Positions 38,517 to 46,255 of a DNA stretch of 64,000 nucleotides are shown here, in pieces (within the stretch, counting starts at the first letter, position 1; each line of letters begins with the position of its first letter). Source of the stretch: Solirubrobacter deserti. GTDB lineage: Bacteria; Actinomycetota; Thermoleophilia; Solirubrobacterales; Solirubrobacteraceae. The position numbers and the translations under genes are program-made. The notes beneath the pieces are model-generated. The model was not told where the DNA came from. It saw only the letters and a list, made by a program, of their open reading frames with translations, and did not search any database. The stretch lies in contig NZ_QPKJ02000003.1 in NCBI RefSeq assembly GCF_003344625.1, forward strand, positions 62,001 to 126,000. The letters run 5' to 3'.

Positions 38517-38726
38517 CTACGGATCAACCTCGGCGTGCGTGTCGGCATCGAGGATGATGATCGCGCCCGCGGGGCAGGCTCGCGCCGCATTCCGGAGCGC
38601 TTCGTCGGAGCCGGGCGCCACCTGCTCCGCCACGTCTCCTTCGAGGATGAACACATTCGGCGCCACGTGGACGCAATCGCCGTGCCCGAGGCAGGCGGAC
38701 TCGTCGATCTGGGCGATGAGGGTCAT
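38517..38726 (-). CDS. Ferredoxin, [3Fe-4S] type
   Basis: A 69-residue electron carrier. Cys12, Cys18 and Cys51 lie in CLGHGDC and CPAGAI; the second Cys position of a 4Fe-4S motif is His15, the pattern of P450-type 3Fe-4S ferredoxins. ATG 38726 overlaps the reductase stop (ATGA). It is the last gene of the six-gene redox operon. Confidence 0.92.
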   Translation of the reverse strand: MTLIAQIDESACLGHGDCVHVAPNVFILEGDVAEQVAPGSDEALRNAARACPAGAIIILDADTHAEVDP

Positions 38727-39643
38727 GCGGCCTCCTTCAGGTCGCGCCGCGCCTCGCGGACGCGGTGGGGTTCGTTCATGAGGACGACGGCCTTCAGACG
38801 GCCGCTCTGGCTGTACGTCAGGTCGCCGTTGTGGGTCGCGCCGCGCGGGTCGCCGACGCGCTGGATGCGGACGCCGTACTGGTCGGACCACACGAGCGGC
38901 GGCTGCTCGGGCTTGGGCTGCAGGCCGAGCATGCGGCGGGCGGCGTTCTGGCCACCGACCACGGCCGCTTCCCAGTGGGCGCTGCCGGTGACGTCGCCGG
39001 CGTGGAAGACACCGGGCGCGGGGTCGGGTCTCCAGGCGGGCTTCACGCCGACCGCGACGAGGATCGTGTCGGCGTTCAGCGGGCCACTGTTCTGGCCCAG
39101 CCGGAGCTCAACGCCGTGCCGCTCGTGCAGGGCTCTGAGCCGGTCGCCGCCGCCCGGGCCCATCAAGGCGTCGAACGGCCGCGGGTTGAGGTCGACGAGC
39201 GTCGTGCGGATGCCACGCGCGGTCGCGGCGGACGCGACCTCCTGCCCGATCAGGCCGGCGCCGATGATCGCGAGGTGGCGGGTGCTCGTAAGCGCCTCGT
39301 CGAGCGCGATCGCGTCCTGGCGGGTGCGCAACGTGAGCGCGTGCGGGAAGGCGTCGAGCGTGATCGGCTCGGCGCCGGTCGCGATCAGGGCCCGGTCGAA
39401 TTCGAGGTGGTCGAGGCTCGTGACGCGCTGCTGGACGAAGTCGACGTCGTTGTCGCGGTACCAGGCGTCCGGCTTGAAGCGGAGCTCGGGACGCTCGCCC
39501 TTGAGGAAGTCCTTCGACAGCGGCGGGCGGTCGTAGGGCAGCTCGTCGCCGTACATGGCGATCGGGCCGTCGTGGCCGAGCTGGCGCAGGGTCTCGGCGC
39601 AGCGCTGCGCCGCGAGGCCCGCGCCGACGAGGACGATTCTCAT
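38723..39643 (-). CDS. FAD-dependent ferredoxin reductase-like oxidoreductase
   Basis: A 306-residue two-dinucleotide-fold flavoprotein. FAD motif VLVGAGLAAQRCAETLR, NAD(P) motif AIIGAGLIGQEVASAA and the late GVFHAGDVT are all present. It is ~100 residues shorter than most rubredoxin/ferredoxin reductases, mainly in the C-terminal domain. It probably reduces the adjacent ferredoxin. Four-base overlaps link it to both neighbours. Confidence 0.9.
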   Translation of the reverse strand: MRIVLVGAGLAAQRCAETLRQLGHDGPIAMYGDELPYDRPPLSKDFLKGERPELRFKPDAWYRDNDVDFVQQRVTSLDHLEFDRALIATGAEPITLDAFPHALTLRTRQDAIALDEALTSTRHLAIIGAGLIGQEVASAATARGIRTTLVDLNPRPFDALMGPGGGDRLRALHERHGVELRLGQNSGPLNADTILVAVGVKPAWRPDPAPGVFHAGDVTGSAHWEAAVVGGQNAARRMLGLQPKPEQPPLVWSDQYGVRIQRVGDPRGATHNGDLTYSQSGRLKAVVLMNEPHRVREARRDLKEAA

Positions 39644-40194
39644 GCCTTGGCTCCCTTCAGGCGGGGTTTCTTCTGCTTGGTCAGGCGGGCGACCAGCAGC
39701 GCGGCGGCCGGGACCGCGGTGGCGAACATGAACGCGCGCAGCCAGGTGGACTCCGCGTCAGTGCCGGCACCGAGCGTGTGGATCAGGCCGAGCACGTAGA
39801 CCACCGGCGTGGCGCGATGCAGGTTGCGCCAGCGCTTGCCGCCGATCCGGCGGCGGGCGTAGAACGACAGGCCGAGCGCGGCCGCGAGGTAGCCCGCGAT
39901 GATGCCGAGACCGACGTAGACCGGCTTGAAATCGATGAGGAACGGGATCGCGATCCCGGCCAGGCCCGGCTTGAGGAAGCCGTCGCCGAGCAACGCCAGG
40001 CCGTGGACGGCGATCGCGATCAGGCTGGCGAGCGCGGTCTGCTCGTGAATGGCGACCAGCGCGCGGCGACGCTGCGGCGGGCCGCCGAGGCCGGCGGCGA
40101 GGGTGAGGCCGATCAGCACCGAGACGGCGACGGTGACGAGCGCCACCACGCCGGCGGAGCGACTGACGAGCCAGAACTCGTGGCCTTCGGTCAT
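39640..40194 (-). CDS. Ferric-reductase-like transmembrane haem protein
   Basis: A 184-residue membrane protein with about five to six helices. Four His residues in helices (VAIHEQTALASLIAIAVHG; NLHRATPVVYVLGLIHT) are placed to bind two haems, as in YedZ/FRE-type domains. It may carry electrons across the membrane from the ferredoxin/reductase pair. ATG 40194 overlaps the apbE stop. Confidence 0.85.
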   Translation of the reverse strand: MTEGHEFWLVSRSAGVVALVTVAVSVLIGLTLAAGLGGPPQRRRALVAIHEQTALASLIAIAVHGLALLGDGFLKPGLAGIAIPFLIDFKPVYVGLGIIAGYLAAALGLSFYARRRIGGKRWRNLHRATPVVYVLGLIHTLGAGTDAESTWLRAFMFATAVPAAALLVARLTKQKKPRLKGAKA

Positions 40195-41048
40195 AGCTGG
40201 TGCACCGTCCCGTCGTCGGTGATGAACAGCCCGCCGTGCCGGCGCAGCCACTTGGGCGCGTGGTCCGGGCCGCTGAGCAGCGCGGCCTTGGCGAGCGTGT
40301 CGGCCTCGGTGGTCGTGGGCGCGAGCGCGGTGGCGCCGATGACGCCCGTCCAGGCGGGCTCGCGCGTGGAGGGGTCGAGCAGGTGATGGCGTGGTGAGCC
40401 GTCCGGCGCGTGCCACAGGCGCAGGTCGATCCCCGACGTGGCGACGGCCTGGTCGGTGAGCGTGAGGGTCGTGATCGGCTCGTGCGTGAGCGGGTGACGA
40501 ACCTCGACCGGGTAGGTGCCGGAGACGCGCATGTCGCCACCGGCGTCGATTGCCCAGGCGCCGCCGTTGAGCCGCAGAGCGAGCATGTCGACGGCGAGGC
40601 CCTTGCCGATCCCGCCGGTGTCGAGCCGCAGGCCGGGCGGGCGGCGGATCGAGTGGTCGGTGACGACGACGCGCATCCAGTCGCCGCTTCCGCCGGCCGG
40701 TCGCCGTGGCGGCGCTTGCGCGAGCGCGGCTTTCAGCGGCAGCTCGGGGTCGCGCCGTGTGCGGTCGTACCCGTTGGCCTCGAGGGCGGCGGTGAGCGTC
40801 GGGTCGACGAGGCCCTCCGTGAGCTCCGCCGCCATCAGGCCCGCGGAGATCGCGCCGCGCAGGAGGGCGGACGCGTCGACTTCCTCGCGCGGGTCCGCGT
40901 TCAGGCGCGAGAGCTCGCTGTCGGGCCGGAAGCGCGAGAGCGCGCGGTCGAAGTCGGTGAGGAACTCCCGGCACGCGAGCGCCGTCGCCTCGTCGGCGAC
41001 CACGAGCCGGACCGTCGTGCCCATGCAGTCGAAGGAGACGTCGGTCAT
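40191..41048 (-). CDS. apbE: FAD:protein FMN transferase
   Basis: A 285-residue flavin transferase that attaches FMN to a Thr/Ser of a partner protein. FDCMGTTVRLVV, DTGGIGKGLAVDML, AIDAGGDMRVSG, HHLLDPSTREP and EADTLAKAAL are the family motifs. There is no signal peptide, unlike most ApbE lipoproteins. No FMN_bind protein with an SGA(T/S) target is encoded nearby. ATG 41048 overlaps the upstream stop (ATGA). Confidence 0.92.
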   Translation of the reverse strand: MTDVSFDCMGTTVRLVVADEATALACREFLTDFDRALSRFRPDSELSRLNADPREEVDASALLRGAISAGLMAAELTEGLVDPTLTAALEANGYDRTRRDPELPLKAALAQAPPRRPAGGSGDWMRVVVTDHSIRRPPGLRLDTGGIGKGLAVDMLALRLNGGAWAIDAGGDMRVSGTYPVEVRHPLTHEPITTLTLTDQAVATSGIDLRLWHAPDGSPRHHLLDPSTREPAWTGVIGATALAPTTTEADTLAKAALLSGPDHAPKWLRRHGGLFITDDGTVHQL

Positions 41049-41827
41049 GACGAGCGCGTGGTCAGCGGCGCCTGCGGCTGCGGCGCGGGGGCGGCCGGGG
41101 CGGGAGCCGGAGCGGCGGGCGCGGGCGCGGCGGGCGCCGGCGCGGACGTCGCGGGCGCGGACGGCGAGGCGGGCGCGGAGCCGCCGCCGGTCGCGGGCGC
41201 GGACGTGGCGGGCGCGCGGCGCGGCCGGTGCTCGACGATGCGCGTGATGATCACGCGCCGCCGGATGATCTGACGCGGCTGCGGCGTCGCTGCCGCGAGC
41301 TGCACCGGCTCGCCCTTCCCGATCGCCGGGTCCTTGCCCGCCCGCATCTGGAACCCGAGCAGCGCCAGGATCGCGAAGAAGAGCCCGCACGAACCCGCGA
41401 TCACGGGAAACGCCCCGGGCTTCTTGATCGGCGGCCGCGCCGCGCGCGCGGCGGCGGGCCGGGACGAGCCGCCGGAGGGCGGCGGCGTGTCCGCGGCCGC
41501 GGGCGCCGGGTCAGGGGTGGACGCGTCCGGGCGGGCGAGGAGGGCATCTACGCCCGCCCGGGGTGCGTCGACGTCGCCCGTGGCCGGGCGTGCCGTGTCC
41601 GCGCCGGCCGAGGTGGCGCGCGGAGAAGGTTGGGGAGCCGCGGCGGCGGCAGGCCCGGCGGCGGTGGGCGCGGGCGCAGCGGCGGCGGCAGGCCCGGCGG
41701 CGGCGGCCGGCGACGCGGCGTCACGCGCCGTCGGGTCGGGCGTCGGCAACGGCGGCAACTTCGCCGTCGGTGCCTCGCTGCGGTCTGGCGCCGCGGTCGG
41801 GAGGGCGTCCCAGCGGCGGTCAGTCAT
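41045..41827 (-). CDS. Ala/Pro-rich single-pass membrane protein
   Basis: 260 residues. Residues ~1-140 are a disordered Ala/Pro/Thr-rich cytoplasmic stretch beginning MTDRRWDALPTAAPDR, followed by KKPGAF and one helix (PVIAGSCGLFFAILALLGF). The outer part has a basic patch (IIRRRVIITRIVEHRPRR) and an Ala/Pro tail. No enzyme motif or FMN attachment motif is seen. ATG 41827 overlaps the upstream gene by 8 bases. Its place before apbE suggests a scaffold role; inference only. Confidence 0.75.
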   Translation of the reverse strand: MTDRRWDALPTAAPDRSEAPTAKLPPLPTPDPTARDAASPAAAAGPAAAAAPAPTAAGPAAAAAPQPSPRATSAGADTARPATGDVDAPRAGVDALLARPDASTPDPAPAAADTPPPSGGSSRPAAARAARPPIKKPGAFPVIAGSCGLFFAILALLGFQMRAGKDPAIGKGEPVQLAAATPQPRQIIRRRVIITRIVEHRPRRAPATSAPATGGGSAPASPSAPATSAPAPAAPAPAAPAPAPAAPAPQPQAPLTTRSS

Positions 41828-42332
41828 CGTCGTCGCCGCCTCGGCCTCGGCCGCGGCCGTGGCCGGAGTCGTCATCGTCGTCGTCGAAGTCGTCGTCGCC
41901 GCGGAAGTCGTCGTCGGAGTCGCCGCCGCGGCCGCGGCCGCGGCCGTGGCCCGAGTCGTCGTCGTGATCGTCGTCGTCGCGCGACGTCTGGGCCGGAGCC
42001 GGCGCGGGCGCCGGGGCGCGCGGGGCCGGGGCGGCCGTGCGGGCGGGAGCGCTGGCGCGGGCCGGGGCGGGCGCCGAGGAGGAGGCGGTCCTCCCGCCGC
42101 CGCCGGCCGCGCCGCCGCCGGTGTTCGACGAGGAGGCACGCTCGCGGCGGACGACGTGGATCGTGCGGCGAATCGTCTTCGTCTTGACCTCGGGCTTGGG
42201 CGTGGACGACGGGGTGGCGGCGGCAATCGTCGGGCGCGGCGGCGTCGAAGGCAGGGCGAGGGCCGCCACGGCGACGCCGCCCAGCGCCGAGACGAGCGCG
42301 ATGGCGATGACGACTGGGGTGCGGAGGCTCAT
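41820..42332 (-). CDS. Membrane-anchored protein with alternating Asp-rich and RGRGRGG tail (copy 1)
   Basis: 170 residues. MSLRTPVVIAIALVSALGG starts a signal anchor. A Thr/Pro then Ala/Pro linker follows, and the last ~55 residues alternate poly-Asp blocks with two copies of SGHGRGRGRGGD, ending in GGDDDD. It probably lies outside the membrane. It is the first gene of the redox operon. A second protein with the same tail is encoded at 42921-43331. Acidic blocks could bind metal; unproven. Confidence 0.75.
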   Translation of the reverse strand: MSLRTPVVIAIALVSALGGVAVAALALPSTPPRPTIAAATPSSTPKPEVKTKTIRRTIHVVRRERASSSNTGGGAAGGGGRTASSSAPAPARASAPARTAAPAPRAPAPAPAPAQTSRDDDDHDDDSGHGRGRGRGGDSDDDFRGDDDFDDDDDDSGHGRGRGRGGDDDD

Positions 42333-42402
42333 GCCACATACCATCGGGTGCGGCTGCCCAAGCGTCCGGTAGGCGAAGGGAAAGAGTTCGGAAAACCTGT
42401 CT

Positions 42403-42924
42403 ATGTGCACCGTGAAGCGCTGGCTCACCATTGGGCTCGCGGCGCCCGCGGGCTGCGGGGCCGAGAAGGACGCGCAGTTGGTCGTGGCCGAGGAGCCGCG
42501 TGAGCAGCAGTCGGTCGAGGGCTACCAGCAGTTCGTGGAGGTCTTCGAGGACGGCGACGAGGACCCGCGGACCACCGCGCGGATCTCGGACGAGACGAAG
42601 ACCGCCCGCGTCACCGTCACGGAGGATTACCGCGAGAACCCAGGAGCCCCGGTCTACATCGAGGGCGCGCTGCAGTTCGTGGAGCTCCGCTGGCCCGGCA
42701 ACCCGACTCCCGTGGCCATCGCCGAGCTCAGCGCAACGCCGCGCGCGCTCGCGGTCCCGCCCGGCACCTACACCGTCATCAGCTACACACGCCCGTGCAG
42801 CGGCCACTGCCAGCAGTCGCTTGACCCACCGGTCGACCGCTGCCGCAAGGGCCGGGTCCGCGTCGACGGGAACCTCTCGCTCAGCGTCCGCACGACGGTC
42901 GGCGAGAAGTGCGTGATCCGCTAG
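42403..42924 (+). CDS. Putative exported or lipid-anchored protein, unknown function
   Basis: About 173 residues. VKRWLTIGLAAPAGCG looks like a weak lipoprotein signal with Cys in place. The mature part is acidic with a beta-rich C-terminal half and four or more Cys (RPCSGHCQQS, DRCRKG, GEKCVIR), suggesting disulfides. No family recognised. The start may be ATG 42403 or GTG 42412. It is divergent from copy 1 of the RGG-tailed protein and overlaps copy 2 by 4 bases at the 3' ends. Confidence 0.65.
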   Translation: MCTVKRWLTIGLAAPAGCGAEKDAQLVVAEEPREQQSVEGYQQFVEVFEDGDEDPRTTARISDETKTARVTVTEDYRENPGAPVYIEGALQFVELRWPGNPTPVAIAELSATPRALAVPPGTYTVISYTRPCSGHCQQSLDPPVDRCRKGRVRVDGNLSLSVRTTVGEKCVIR

Positions 42925-43331
42925 TCGTCGCCGCCGCGGCCGCGTCCGCGACCACGCCCACGGCCCTGGCCGGAATCGTCGTCGCCGCCGCCTGACCCGG
43001 AGCTGTCATCGCCACCACCGGGCCCGGAGTTGTCGTCGTCCACCGTCGGCACGGGCGTACTGGTCGGCCGCGGCGTGGCGGTGCGCGTGGGCCGCGGCGT
43101 GGCCGTCCGCGTAGGTCGGGGCGTGGCCGTGCGGGTCGGGCGCGGCGACGGGGTCGGGGTCACGGTCGCGGTCGCGGTCGGCGCCAGCCCTTCGCCGGCC
43201 GTCAAGGGCTCCGACGAGAGTCCGACGCTCTGATTGGACAGCGTGCTCGCCGCCGTGGTGAGTGCGGCCGCGACCACGAGCCCGGCCACGGCGGCGACCA
43301 CGACCACGAGCGTTCGGCGCCAGCCGGTCAC
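42921..43331 (-). CDS. Membrane-anchored protein with Asp-rich and RGRGRGG tail (copy 2)
   Basis: 136 residues. One N-terminal helix (TLVVVVAAVAGLVVAAAL) is followed by a Thr/Pro stalk with three 8-residue PRPTRTAT repeats and a tail of Gly/Ser/Asp blocks ending DDDSGQGRGRGRGRGRGGDD. The tail matches copy 1. GTG 43331 has a GCGGAGGA site. It is the last gene of the two-component operon. Confidence 0.75.
   Translation of the reverse strand: MTGWRRTLVVVVAAVAGLVVAAALTTAASTLSNQSVGLSSEPLTAGEGLAPTATATVTPTPSPRPTRTATPRPTRTATPRPTRTATPRPTSTPVPTVDDDNSGPGGGDDSSGSGGGDDDSGQGRGRGRGRGRGGDD
43062..43140. repeat. Three tandem 24-bp repeats in the Thr/Pro stalk
   Basis: Near-identical 24-bp units around 'ggccgcggcgtggc' encode PRPTRTAT three times in frame. 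Such repeats may vary in copy number between strains. Confidence 0.75.
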
Positions 43332-43465
43332 GACCGTCCTCCGCGGGCAGGCCTGGCGAACGGCGCCGCGAGCGCGCAGGCCAGCGCGTGACGCCGCGCG
43401 CGGGCGGGCACAGCGGGCGCAGCGTCGCGGCGCCGGGCCGGAGCGGGACGGGCGTCCGCGCTCAT
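43328..43465 (-). CDS. Candidate 45-residue Arg/Ala-rich protein inside the two-component operon
   Basis: An open frame from ATG 43465 to TGA 43328. The start overlaps the kinase stop (ATGA) and the stop overlaps the next gene's GTG (GTGA), the same coupling as elsewhere in this window. The product starts MSADARPAPARRRDAAPAVP and is Arg/Ala/Pro-rich with one Cys, without known motifs. It may be a real gene or a coupling leader; composition alone cannot decide in such GC-rich DNA. Confidence 0.4.
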   Translation of the reverse strand: MSADARPAPARRRDAAPAVPARARRHALACALAAPFARPARGGRS

Positions 43466-44823
43466 GAGGTCGTCGCCTCCGCAGGGTGTTCCGAGGTCGT
43501 GGCGCCGTCGGCGACCGGAAACGTGATCGTCGCGACAGCGCCGCCTTCCGGCGCGTTGGCGAGCGTCACGGTGCCGTTCCAGCGAGCGGAGAGCTCACGC
43601 GCGATCGCGAGGCCCAGGCCGGTGCCCCGGCGGCGGGACGCGCGGCCGACGGTGCCGCGGTGGAAGCGGTGGAACACGGTCTCCTCCTCGCCCGCGCGCA
43701 GGCCCGGGCCCTCGTCGGTGACGGTGAGCTGCCCCGGCGCCACGGCGACGACGACCATCTGGCCGGCCGGGCCGTAGTCGATCGCGTTCTCGAGCACGGC
43801 GTCGAGCATGCGGTCGAGGTCGCCGGCCGTGCAGCGCACCAGCGAGGGCGAGCCGCGCAGCTCGATGTGGGCGGCCGGGTGGCGCTCGACCGCCCGGGCG
43901 GCGCCCGCGAGCAGCTCGCACACCGCGTCCGGCGCCCGCGCCGCGCCCGCCTCGCTCAACACCAGCAGCTCCGACACCACGTCCGACAGGCGGTCGACCT
44001 CGTCCAGCGCGGCGCTCAGGTCCTCGCGCGAACCGGTCGCCGCCACCTCTTCGAGGCGCAGGCGCAGCCCGGTCAGCGGCGTGCGCAGCTGGTGGGAGGC
44101 GTCGGCCACGAAGTCGCGCTGGGCGTCGACCATCCGCTGCACCCGCGCGGTCATCTCGTTGAACGCCTGCCCGACCTCGCGCTGCTCCAGGGAGCCTTCG
44201 ATCGCCACCCTCGCCGAGAGGTCGCCCTCGCCGGCCCGCCGGGCGGCGACCGCCAGCCGCCGCAGCGGCCGCACGATCGACGCCGCCAATAGCGCCCCCG
44301 CGCCCAGACCGAGCGCCAACACGATCGCGCCGACCAGGACGAGCCCGATCGTCGCGGATCCCACCGCCCGGTCCACGGCGTCGACGCTCTGCGTGATCCG
44401 CACCGCGCCGTCCGGCCGCCCGTCCCGCAGCACCGGCACCGCCGTGGCCAGGATCGGCTCGTCGAGCGTCGAGGACTCGCGCTCGTCCTGGGACGTCGTG
44501 CCGCGCAGCGCCGCACGCACCTCGGGCCGAGACGAGTAGTCCGCGCCCACGCCGCCCGGCGACGAGTCGGCCACCACGACGCCGCGCGCGTCCAGGATCA
44601 GCACCCGCCCGCGCACCTGGCGCGCGGCCGTCACCGCCAGAGCCGCCGGATCGGACGTGTCGCCCGCCGTCGCGGCGACGACCTCGGCCTGTGAGACCGC
44701 CGCCTGCGACACCTCGGCCGAGATCCGGTCGCGCACGGACCGCACCAGCGGCACGAGCATCGACCCGATCGCCAGCACGAGCACGTAGGCCAGCACGAGC
44801 ATCAGCCGCCCCCGCAGCGTCAT
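43462..44823 (-). CDS. Sensor histidine kinase (HisKA/HATPase_c)
   Basis: About 453 residues. TM1 is at ~6-25, an extracytoplasmic sensor to ~140, TM2 at ~148-172, then HAMP, HisKA with phospho-His in DASHQLRTPLTGL, and an ATPase domain with ENAIDYGP, DEGPGL and RRGTGLGLAIA. The ligand is unknown. ATG 44823 overlaps the regulator stop (ATGA); ATG 44829 is also possible. It pairs with the OmpR-type regulator just upstream. Confidence 0.93.
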   Translation of the reverse strand: MTLRGRLMLVLAYVLVLAIGSMLVPLVRSVRDRISAEVSQAAVSQAEVVAATAGDTSDPAALAVTAARQVRGRVLILDARGVVVADSSPGGVGADYSSRPEVRAALRGTTSQDERESSTLDEPILATAVPVLRDGRPDGAVRITQSVDAVDRAVGSATIGLVLVGAIVLALGLGAGALLAASIVRPLRRLAVAARRAGEGDLSARVAIEGSLEQREVGQAFNEMTARVQRMVDAQRDFVADASHQLRTPLTGLRLRLEEVAATGSREDLSAALDEVDRLSDVVSELLVLSEAGAARAPDAVCELLAGAARAVERHPAAHIELRGSPSLVRCTAGDLDRMLDAVLENAIDYGPAGQMVVVAVAPGQLTVTDEGPGLRAGEEETVFHRFHRGTVGRASRRRGTGLGLAIARELSARWNGTVTLANAPEGGAVATITFPVADGATTSEHPAEATTS

Positions 44824-45497
44824 GACCATGCCGACGGACCCTCGAACCGGAACCCGACGCCGCGCACCGTGTGCACCCAGCGCGGATCACCGAGCTTCCC
44901 GCGCAGCCAGCCGACGTGTACGTCCAGCGTCTTCGTCGACCCGAACCAGTTCTCGTCCCACACGCGCGCGATCAGGTCCTCGCGCGTGACGACCTGCCCG
45001 GCGTGCCGGACGAGCTCCGCCAGCAGATCGAACTCCTTGCGGGAGAGCGCCAGCTCCTCGTCGTCCAGGAGCGCACGGCGCGACGCGAGCTCGACGCGCA
45101 GCGGCCCGACGACCACGTCAGACGGCGCCGACGGCTTCACCCGCCGCAGCACGGCGCGCATGCGCGCGATCACCTCCGCCCCGCTGAACGGCTTGACCAC
45201 GTAGTCGTCCGCGCCCAGCTCGAGACCGACCACCCGCTCGAGCTCGGTCCCCCGCGCGGTGAGCATGATGATCGGCACCTCGGACCCGGCACCGCGGATC
45301 TCCCGCGCGAAGTCGCGCCCGTCGCCGTCCGGCAACATCAGGTCGAGCAGCACGAGCTCGAAGCCCGACGGCCACGCCGCCCGCGCCTCTTCCAGCGACC
45401 CCGCGACGACCGGCTCGAACCCCTCCCGCGCGAGCGCGCTCGAAAACGGCCCGGAGATCGAGGGCTCGTCCTCGACGAACAAGACGCGCGGCTTCAC
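44820..45497 (-). CDS. OmpR-family response regulator
   Basis: A 225-residue two-domain regulator. Receiver: LFVEDEPSIS, phospho-Asp in LVLLDLMLPDGDG, Lys in YVVKPFS. The C-terminal winged helix ends DVHVGWLRGKLGDPRWVHTV. GTG 45497 is 7 bases after a TAGAGT box (45505-45510, minus strand), so the mRNA is probably leaderless. An 8-bp palindrome at 45532-45555 lies just upstream of the promoter and could be an autoregulatory site. Confidence 0.95.
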   Translation of the reverse strand: MKPRVLFVEDEPSISGPFSSALAREGFEPVVAGSLEEARAAWPSGFELVLLDLMLPDGDGRDFAREIRGAGSEVPIIMLTARGTELERVVGLELGADDYVVKPFSGAEVIARMRAVLRRVKPSAPSDVVVGPLRVELASRRALLDDEELALSRKEFDLLAELVRHAGQVVTREDLIARVWDENWFGSTKTLDVHVGWLRGKLGDPRWVHTVRGVGFRFEGPSAWS

Positions 45498-45598: not shown

Positions 45599-46255
45599 CT
45601 ATCGAGGCGGCGAGACCAGGCCGGCCTCGACCGCCTTGCGCACGAGCTCGAAGCGCTTGCGGTACGGCGCCGAAGACTGCAGCTGGAACGCGTCGAACAG
45701 CGCGCGCATGTGCGTCTTCACCGTGTCGATCGAGACCGTCAGCTCCGCCGCGATCTCCTCGTTGGACGCCGGCCCGTCCGCCGGGCGGCACAACGCGCCC
45801 AGCACGCGCAGCTGCGCGGGCGTGAGCACCGGCACCGCGGCCGCCGAGGCGACCTCGGTGAGCTTGGAGTCCTGCCCCGCCTCGGACGGATCGTGGAAGC
45901 GCAGCCGGGTCGCGCCCACGCGGATGACGTCCAGGTGGCGCAGCGTGCGGCGGCCGACGACCCGCTCCTCGTTGACGAACGTGCCGTTGGTGGAGCGCCC
46001 GTCGTCCAGCACGGTCCAGACGCCGTCCAGGCACTCGATCGACGCGTGCGAGCGCGAGACCTGCGCGTCCCACGGCAACGCGAGGCCCGCTGCGGGCGAG
46101 CGCCCGACGGTCAGCTCGCCGTCCAGCGTCACGATCCGCTGCACCCCGTCGCCGTCGCGCAGCTCGACGAACGGCGCCTCCGCCCGCTCGGCGGCCAGCC
46201 GGGCCTGCAGTTCGGCGGGGGACGACGCGTGACGTTCAGGCCAGTCGTGCACCAC
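45599..46255 (-). CDS. FHA-domain protein with C-terminal LuxR-type helix-turn-helix
   Basis: A 218-residue regulator. The FHA domain (~45-120) has GRSPAAGLAL, SRSHASIECLDG and STNGTFVN, so it should bind phosphothreonine. The C-terminal ~60 residues form a LuxR/GerE-like motif (SNEEIAAELTVSIDTVKTHMRALF). This suggests Ser/Thr-kinase-linked transcription control. GTG 46255 follows TAGAGT (46262-46267, minus strand) by 6 bases; GTG 46252 is the alternative. Confidence 0.88.
   Translation of the reverse strand: MVHDWPERHASSPAELQARLAAERAEAPFVELRDGDGVQRIVTLDGELTVGRSPAAGLALPWDAQVSRSHASIECLDGVWTVLDDGRSTNGTFVNEERVVGRRTLRHLDVIRVGATRLRFHDPSEAGQDSKLTEVASAAAVPVLTPAQLRVLGALCRPADGPASNEEIAAELTVSIDTVKTHMRALFDAFQLQSSAPYRKRFELVRKAVEAGLVSPPR

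Follow-up and report, generated by a model that had tools for sequence, protein, structure and literature searches.

A candidate C-terminal flavin tag on membrane-tethered stalk proteins of an MsrQ-like redox locus in Solirubrobacter deserti

The DNA analysed here is a stretch of 64,000 nucleotides from Solirubrobacter deserti (contig NZ_QPKJ02000003.1, positions 62,001 to 126,000), referred to below as the window. It contains a cluster of redox and signalling genes, among them one for a small membrane protein, designated PA, whose C-terminus is proposed as a natural attachment site for flavin mononucleotide (FMN). The source assembly comprises 7,551,297 bases in 428 contigs (completeness, 96.73; contamination, 5.04). 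Read in descending coordinates, the order on the minus strand is a response regulator (RR), a sensor kinase (HK), the tailed membrane proteins Tail2 and Tail1, PA, ApbE (of the flavin adenine dinucleotide [FAD]:protein FMN transferase family), a ferric-reductase/MsrQ-like haem protein (FRE), a ferredoxin-reductase-like flavoprotein (FNR), and a ferredoxin (Fd), followed by ClpB (Table 1). The start of ApbE is overlapped by the PA stop. Pfam matches bore out the genes, boundaries, and families named in a preliminary description of this DNA (ApbE, ferric-reductase-type protein, FNR, ferredoxin, kinase, and OmpR-type regulator), and both tailed membrane proteins carry the poly-Asp plus SGxGRGRGRGG tails reported there. 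Its arrangement of two facing operons was wrong, in that all the named genes lie on the minus strand; the Tail2 side and the Tail1 side are separated by one plus-strand open reading frame (ORF; 42403-42924, 173 aa), for which Pfam and NCBIfam searches gave no family. The Pro/Ala-rich single-helix PA protein, between Tail1 and ApbE, was absent from that description; it is the most interesting part of the locus and likely its electron-carrying part.

Table 1. Features of the locus, from high to low coordinate (positions of the window)
Feature	Position	Strand	Family matches and remarks
OmpR-type response regulator (RR)	44820..45497	-	Response_reg 1e-20, Trans_reg_C 2.5e-25; similar regulators near the redox operon in relatives
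Membrane sensor kinase (HK)	43462..44829	-	HATPase_c 8.7e-19, HisKA 1.4e-12, HAMP 1.5e-11; weak Cache-type sensor match sCache_3_2 1.1e-4, below cut-off
Tail2: single membrane helix, motif QSVGLSSEPLTAGEGLAP, Pro/Thr linker, Asp/GRG tail, end -DD	42921..43331	-	
Tail1: single membrane helix, basic motif KTIRRTIHVVRRE, Ala/Pro stretch, two Asp/SGHGRGRGRGG blocks, end -DDDD	41820..42332	-	
PA: single membrane helix, QMRAGKDPAIG, basic motif IRRRVIITRIV, Pro/Ala stalk, C-terminus PLTTRSS	41045..41827	-	Proposed flavin stalk
Last four codons of PA (TRSS)	41048..41059	-	Proposed tag; last Ser, proposed FMN site
ApbE (FAD:protein FMN transferase family)	40191..41048	-	PF02424 1.7e-45; without signal peptide; Lys254 where solved ApbEs carry Thr
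FRE: ferric-reductase/MsrQ-like membrane haem protein, four invariant His	39640..40194	-	Ferric_reduct PF01794 2.1e-07
FNR: ferredoxin-reductase-like FAD/NAD(P) flavoprotein	38723..39643	-	Pyr_redox_2 1.4e-28
Single-cluster ferredoxin	38517..38726	-	Fer4_15 3.3e-09, Fer4_13 3.4e-09

PA-type proteins share one membrane helix, the motif QMxxGxDPALG, a basic stretch, and a low-complexity stalk, and Pfam and NCBIfam searches with the window protein gave no family. Relatives were collected with a profile of 38 residues that covers only the helix and GxDPAL and is blind to the C-terminus; it was trained on 24 of 30 matches, the remaining six having been discarded on visual inspection as different genes, at a point when their C-termini were visible. 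The profile matched 86 closed ORFs, all distinct, in 69 loci, ORFs open at a contig end being excluded from the tag counts. The extreme C-terminus read [ST]xxS in 70 of the 86, compared with a mean of 6.05 and a maximum of 13 in 2000 composition shuffles of the last 40 residues. Outside the training set the proportion was 48/62, and at E<1e-3 it was 62/75. The general trend of this tag was P-[VLI]-[VT]-T-[SRAG]-[QAST]-S. The same ending was found in 6/409 proteins of seven neighbour families (FRE, 2/112; ApbE, 0/103; HK, 1/66; RR, 3/67; FNR, 0/26; Fd, 0/30; ClpB, 0/5) and in 305/12,500 other closed ORFs. As judged by eye, 12 of the 16 untagged PA-family ORFs have [ST]xxS followed by 1 to 11 residues, and the remaining 4 do not clearly have it. 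Stalks running a few residues beyond the tag (TRTSPVPPP, TRTSGGGGGDDE) were seen at L144, L149, L135, L069 (12798-13508), and L158 (7077-7520). Since some stalk proteins extend past the tag, the proposed site would not always be the last residue. Some operons or loci (L132, L134, L136, L069, and L074) encode two or three stalk proteins of the PA type that differ in their tags.

A similar result was obtained without the profile. Among loci with at least 700 bases of sequence upstream of ApbE, a same-strand protein with one or two helices and an [ST]xxS end was present in 65 of the 75 clade-1 loci containing ApbE and FRE, the corresponding values being 0/75 for the opposite strand and 2/45 for distant windows. 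Four of the 10 misses are tagged in the profile list, and another four have a tag-like stretch near the end. Chance as the source of the tag was rejected on the basis of the shuffles and of the opposite-strand and distant-window controls. A large protein search rendered eight sequences, one of them the window's own and two (P0006 and P0008) carrying an ApbE match and looking like miscalled ORFs; in the five PA relatives, aligned with the window protein, TTRSS or TTQSS is kept and the stalk varies. The charge flanking the PA helix averaged +5.6 before it and +0.8 after it, and was higher before than after in 62 of 69 cases; the stalk end is thus predicted to lie outside the cell.

The haem protein of the window matched PF01794 with 31.5 bits (cut-off, 28), with the MsrQ and MamZ models far under the cut-off, and its four His residues, candidate haem ligands, were kept in 43 of 43 sequences. 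It was detected at 57 places in 33 of 61 genomes, own and relatives (E<=1e-3), and in 84 of 151 genomes from the order, own counted (E<=1e-12). For 70 new strong-clade FRE places, 60 regions, holding 62 of them, were fetched, and FRE matches weaker than 1e-10 were ignored in listing the gene neighbourhoods. The fetched regions plus the window gave 103 clade-1 haem-protein records in 99 loci, some of the regions being cut by contig ends. A same-strand ApbE was found with 87 of the 103 records, in 85 cases with the Lys discussed below; a PA-type protein lay near 72, a ferredoxin near 29, and an FNR near 26. Both RR and HK genes were located within about 5 kb of 58 records, some of the kinases being only weakly like that of the window, and the regulator was on the opposite strand in 38 of these and on the same strand in 20. 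The link between redox chain and two-component system drawn in the preliminary description is supported, as is the view that the two operons belong together. Three Solirubrobacter loci were recovered in a scan of genome contigs, each stopping at a contig end near ApbE. When recurrent neighbour genes were examined in search of an electron acceptor, the three clusters submitted to Pfam gave an ABC ATPase, an enoyl-CoA hydratase, and no family, respectively.

The published ApbE motif is D-x-x-[ST]-G-A-[ST], with FMN placed on the final Ser/Thr; seven residues are enough for flavinylation, and terminal tags perform best. Changing Asp to Ala had a minor effect, and the Gly-to-Ala and Ala-to-Val mutants kept about half (PMC12052999). 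Ends of the exact type occur within the PA family (TSGAS, VTGAS, and QSGAS). In clade 2, in which ApbE keeps the usual Thr, a tagged protein was found in three of seven loci, ending in VTSGAS, VSQGS, or VSGGS. Outside the order, 41 ApbE places were available, of which 26 were read as narrow loci and 20 were refetched wide, 5 of the latter being already tagged. A same-strand tag was present in 5/26 narrow loci (opposite strand, 1/26) and, in the wide regions, in those 5 plus 3/15 others (opposite strand, 1/20). The ends included SSGAS, DIRTGQS, and DSDSGQS, the latter two fitting the seven-residue motif except for Gln in place of Ala. Such exact or near ends in relatives thus bridge the loose tag to the canonical ApbE site. 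At two loci outside the order, L242 (5241-5834, minus strand) and L255 (4994-5737, minus strand), helix proteins ending in DSDSGQS or SSDAS are followed 2 and 8 bases behind by ApbE, with no haem protein detected; these may be other terminal-tag substrates.

The nearest known systems are the MsrQ-like flavinylation clusters, which combine a PF01794 haem membrane protein with apbE, are broadly conserved in Actinobacteria, and typically hold a gene with an FMN-binding domain, with NAD(P)H (reduced nicotinamide adenine dinucleotide or its phosphate) proposed as the donor for a subset (Meheust et al. 2021, PMC8238504). The window cluster likewise has the PF01794 protein and apbE. It differs in that no FMN-binding-domain gene was detected in its genome, C-terminally tagged stalks standing in its place, and in that its donor side consists of a separate FNR and ferredoxin. 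We read the locus, with a probability of about two in three, as an MsrQ-like electron-export system in which the folded FMN_bind carrier would be replaced by membrane-tethered, low-complexity PA stalks carrying FMN on the last Ser, attached by ApbE. Judging from the families present, FNR and ferredoxin would relay electrons from NAD(P)H to the two FRE haems, which would conduct them across the membrane. The ApbE of the operon would attach FMN to the last Ser of PA, a cytosolic enzyme modifying the C-terminus ahead of export; the flavin at the tip of a flexible stalk would then take electrons at the outer FRE haem and pass them on in the cell wall to an outside acceptor. The site may lie at the extreme C-terminus because this is the last part to leave the cytosol and could be reached by a cytosolic ApbE only before export. 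The two-component system, together with the membrane protein Tail2, probably controls the operon.

The proposed site resembles the engineered flavin tag in being a short terminal peptide with the last Ser/Thr as the putative FMN site; unlike that tag (PMC12052999), it is natural, stands at the extreme C-terminus of low-complexity stalks, and has the consensus T-[SRAG]-[QAST]-S, with D, G, and A mostly absent. In FMN_red proteins, too, the residue targeted by ApbE lies in an extension at the C-terminus that is unstructured (Huang et al. 2024, PMC11334425), but these proteins carry a folded flavin-binding domain, whereas PA matches no Pfam or NCBIfam family. Among the open-licence papers searched, none was found to describe a membrane stalk with a natural flavin tag at its C-terminus.

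Several observations weigh against the carrier reading. The window PA end, LTTRSS, fails the published motif, only T(-4) and S(-1) fitting it, without Gly, Ala, or Asp. Of the 70 tagged proteins, 8 have Gly at -3 and 19 have Ala at -2; the exact [ST]GAS end is limited to 3/86 PA-family ORFs. The last residue is Ser in all 70, though ApbE is reported to prefer Thr over Ser at the modified residue (PMC12052999). The tag counts come from related sequences rather than from independent events, so that they show conservation and not repeated origin. The tag test missed 4 of the 7 clade-2 loci and 10 of the 75 clade-1 loci, and the fractions given above for loci outside the order belong here too. The stalk offers no folded site to shield FMN. 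The space for an ApbE signal peptide is small, with <=17 residues between the PA stop and the ApbE domain in 45/58 cases, and FMN addition would have to precede export, because ApbE is without a signal peptide and the stalk end is predicted to lie outside.

The enzyme itself also contributes to this list. The window ApbE matched PF02424 with 156 bits (cut-off, 25.6) over positions 1-258 of 266, and by our own mapping S205, H222, and D250 match the Ser/His/Asp of solved ApbEs, residues named as catalytic in other ApbEs (PMC12052999). FMN transferase activity is inferred from this likeness. Lys254 falls on the Thr four residues after the catalytic Asp, a position occupied by Thr or Ser in the four alignments to solved ApbEs. 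In alignment A1, Lys replaces Thr in 34/34 ApbEs; in an earlier set it was found in 33/34 (the exception, L053, reading ANTAST), and in that set the catalytic Asp is Glu in 29/34. The Thr presumably has a role in metal binding. Since Lys replaces Thr and, in most of them, Glu replaces Asp, the activity of these enzymes could differ.

In the preliminary description the acidic/RGG tails were proposed to act as surface probes that bind metals or polyanions and serve the two-component system and the redox chain, a role compatible with flavin-bearing stalks. Tail1 gave no family in Pfam, and Tail2 gave none in Pfam and only weak low-complexity matches under the cut-off in NCBIfam. A DNA pattern for the GRGRGRGGD tail occurred 16 times in seven Solirubrobacter genomes, six of which were positive, and the reversed control pattern did not occur; 12 of these hits correspond to the C-terminal tail of a Tail1 or Tail2 protein, at a contig end in some cases, and the other 4 to something other than a tail. 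Thus, within the genus the GRG/Asp tails are restricted to this locus, which favours the probe. Neither of the outcomes set beforehand as adverse to it, randomly placed tails or two operons that never co-occur, was observed. Elsewhere in the order, proteins were sought that have a membrane helix and the motif [IV]G[LI]x[SG][EQ]P (run in a slightly looser form) and that lie behind a kinase. The 22 Tail2-type proteins so obtained, the window's own counted, share this post-membrane motif. A C-terminal -DD, also in favour of the probe, was found in 21 of these 22 (mean, 1.1, and maximum, 6, in 5000 shuffles of the last 30 residues), but GRGRG in only 5, so that the RGG part seems dispensable. On this count the GRG/RGG tail was rejected as the core of the system; most of the family simply ends in acidic residues, which the tail appears to elaborate locally. 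Altogether, the surface probe is a doubtful explanation. The tailed proteins were likewise rejected as ApbE substrates, having no correctly placed Ser/Thr after SGxG and ending in Asp. At least one additional GRG tail behind a kinase occurs in L068, without the motif that defines the 22. Only ~310 bases lie between the Tail1 and Tail2 ORFs of L057, a close relative, which is thus without ORF 42403-42924. An FHA-domain protein (45599-46255, minus strand; PF00498 3.3e-14, with a weak helix-turn-helix match) adjoins the regulator, and among loci L035-L074 its homologue was found only in L057.

Another possibility is that the tag serves export, FRE assembly, or the control of proteolysis, and that ApbE flavinylates an unseen protein. 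The link between PA and ApbE comes from sequence comparison, and the departure of the window tag from the published motif would suit such a role. The genome of the window (96.7% complete) has one ApbE, and no member of four known substrate families, FMN_bind (PF04205), DUF2271, DUF3570, and NQR2_RnfD_RnfE (NqrB/RnfD), was found in it, the Flavodoxin_4 and FMN_red types being outside this search. Among the 61 genomes, ApbE occurs in 34, and FMN_bind in 7 of these 34 and in no others, which leaves 27 of the 34 without it; outside the order, 28 of 35 ApbE-bearing genomes are without FMN_bind. By eye, another ApbE lies at most a few kb away from 7 of the 11 FMN_bind matches in the 61 genomes, and no FMN_bind match is found within 100 kb, on the same contig, of any of the 57 haem-protein places. 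G253 and G346 have tagged loci, yet FMN_bind is present elsewhere in the genome. In a few genomes (L100-L105) a separate ApbE adjoins a true FMN_bind protein with a VSGATYTS-like site. The failure to find these four families in the window genome, and the fact that some relatives carry an exact or near ApbE motif in this terminal position, make a different role for the tag unlikely.

The Lys and Glu substitutions, together with a tag that deviates from the canonical motif, could also mean that this ApbE clade does use the tag as its substrate but, with its altered active site, transfers another group, for example another nucleotide, in which case the stalk would be modified without being a flavoprotein. 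Nevertheless, the remaining conserved residues align with those of solved ApbEs, the neighbours are redox proteins, and the same kind of tag is found in those three of the seven loci whose ApbE keeps Thr, so that transfer of a different group appears quite unlikely. Finally, PA as a mere structural tether for FRE or ApbE, with C-termini alike by common descent, would suit genes that co-occur and a conserved membrane core, but is very unlikely, given that the last four residues are retained on stalks of different kinds (Pro/Ala, acidic, and Gln- or Ser-rich).

The system is filed as a variant of the MsrQ-like flavinylation systems; since the window tag misses the published motif, membership of the ApbE-substrate class is not taken as proven. 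Taken further, and here we lean only somewhat towards acceptance, the PA proteins would form a new class of flavoproteins without a folded flavin domain: disordered tethered arms, given FMN on a C-terminal Ser by a cytosolic Lys-type ApbE clade and exported afterwards. In Solirubrobacterales and some other Actinomycetota these arms, of which an operon can encode up to three, would swing within the cell wall as electron carriers. If this is true, new tags and a new ApbE clade would become available for protein labelling, a flavin carrier would be shown to need no folded domain, and a natural C-terminal flavin tag would be the substrate for many of the ApbE-bearing genomes of the phylum that are without FMN_bind.

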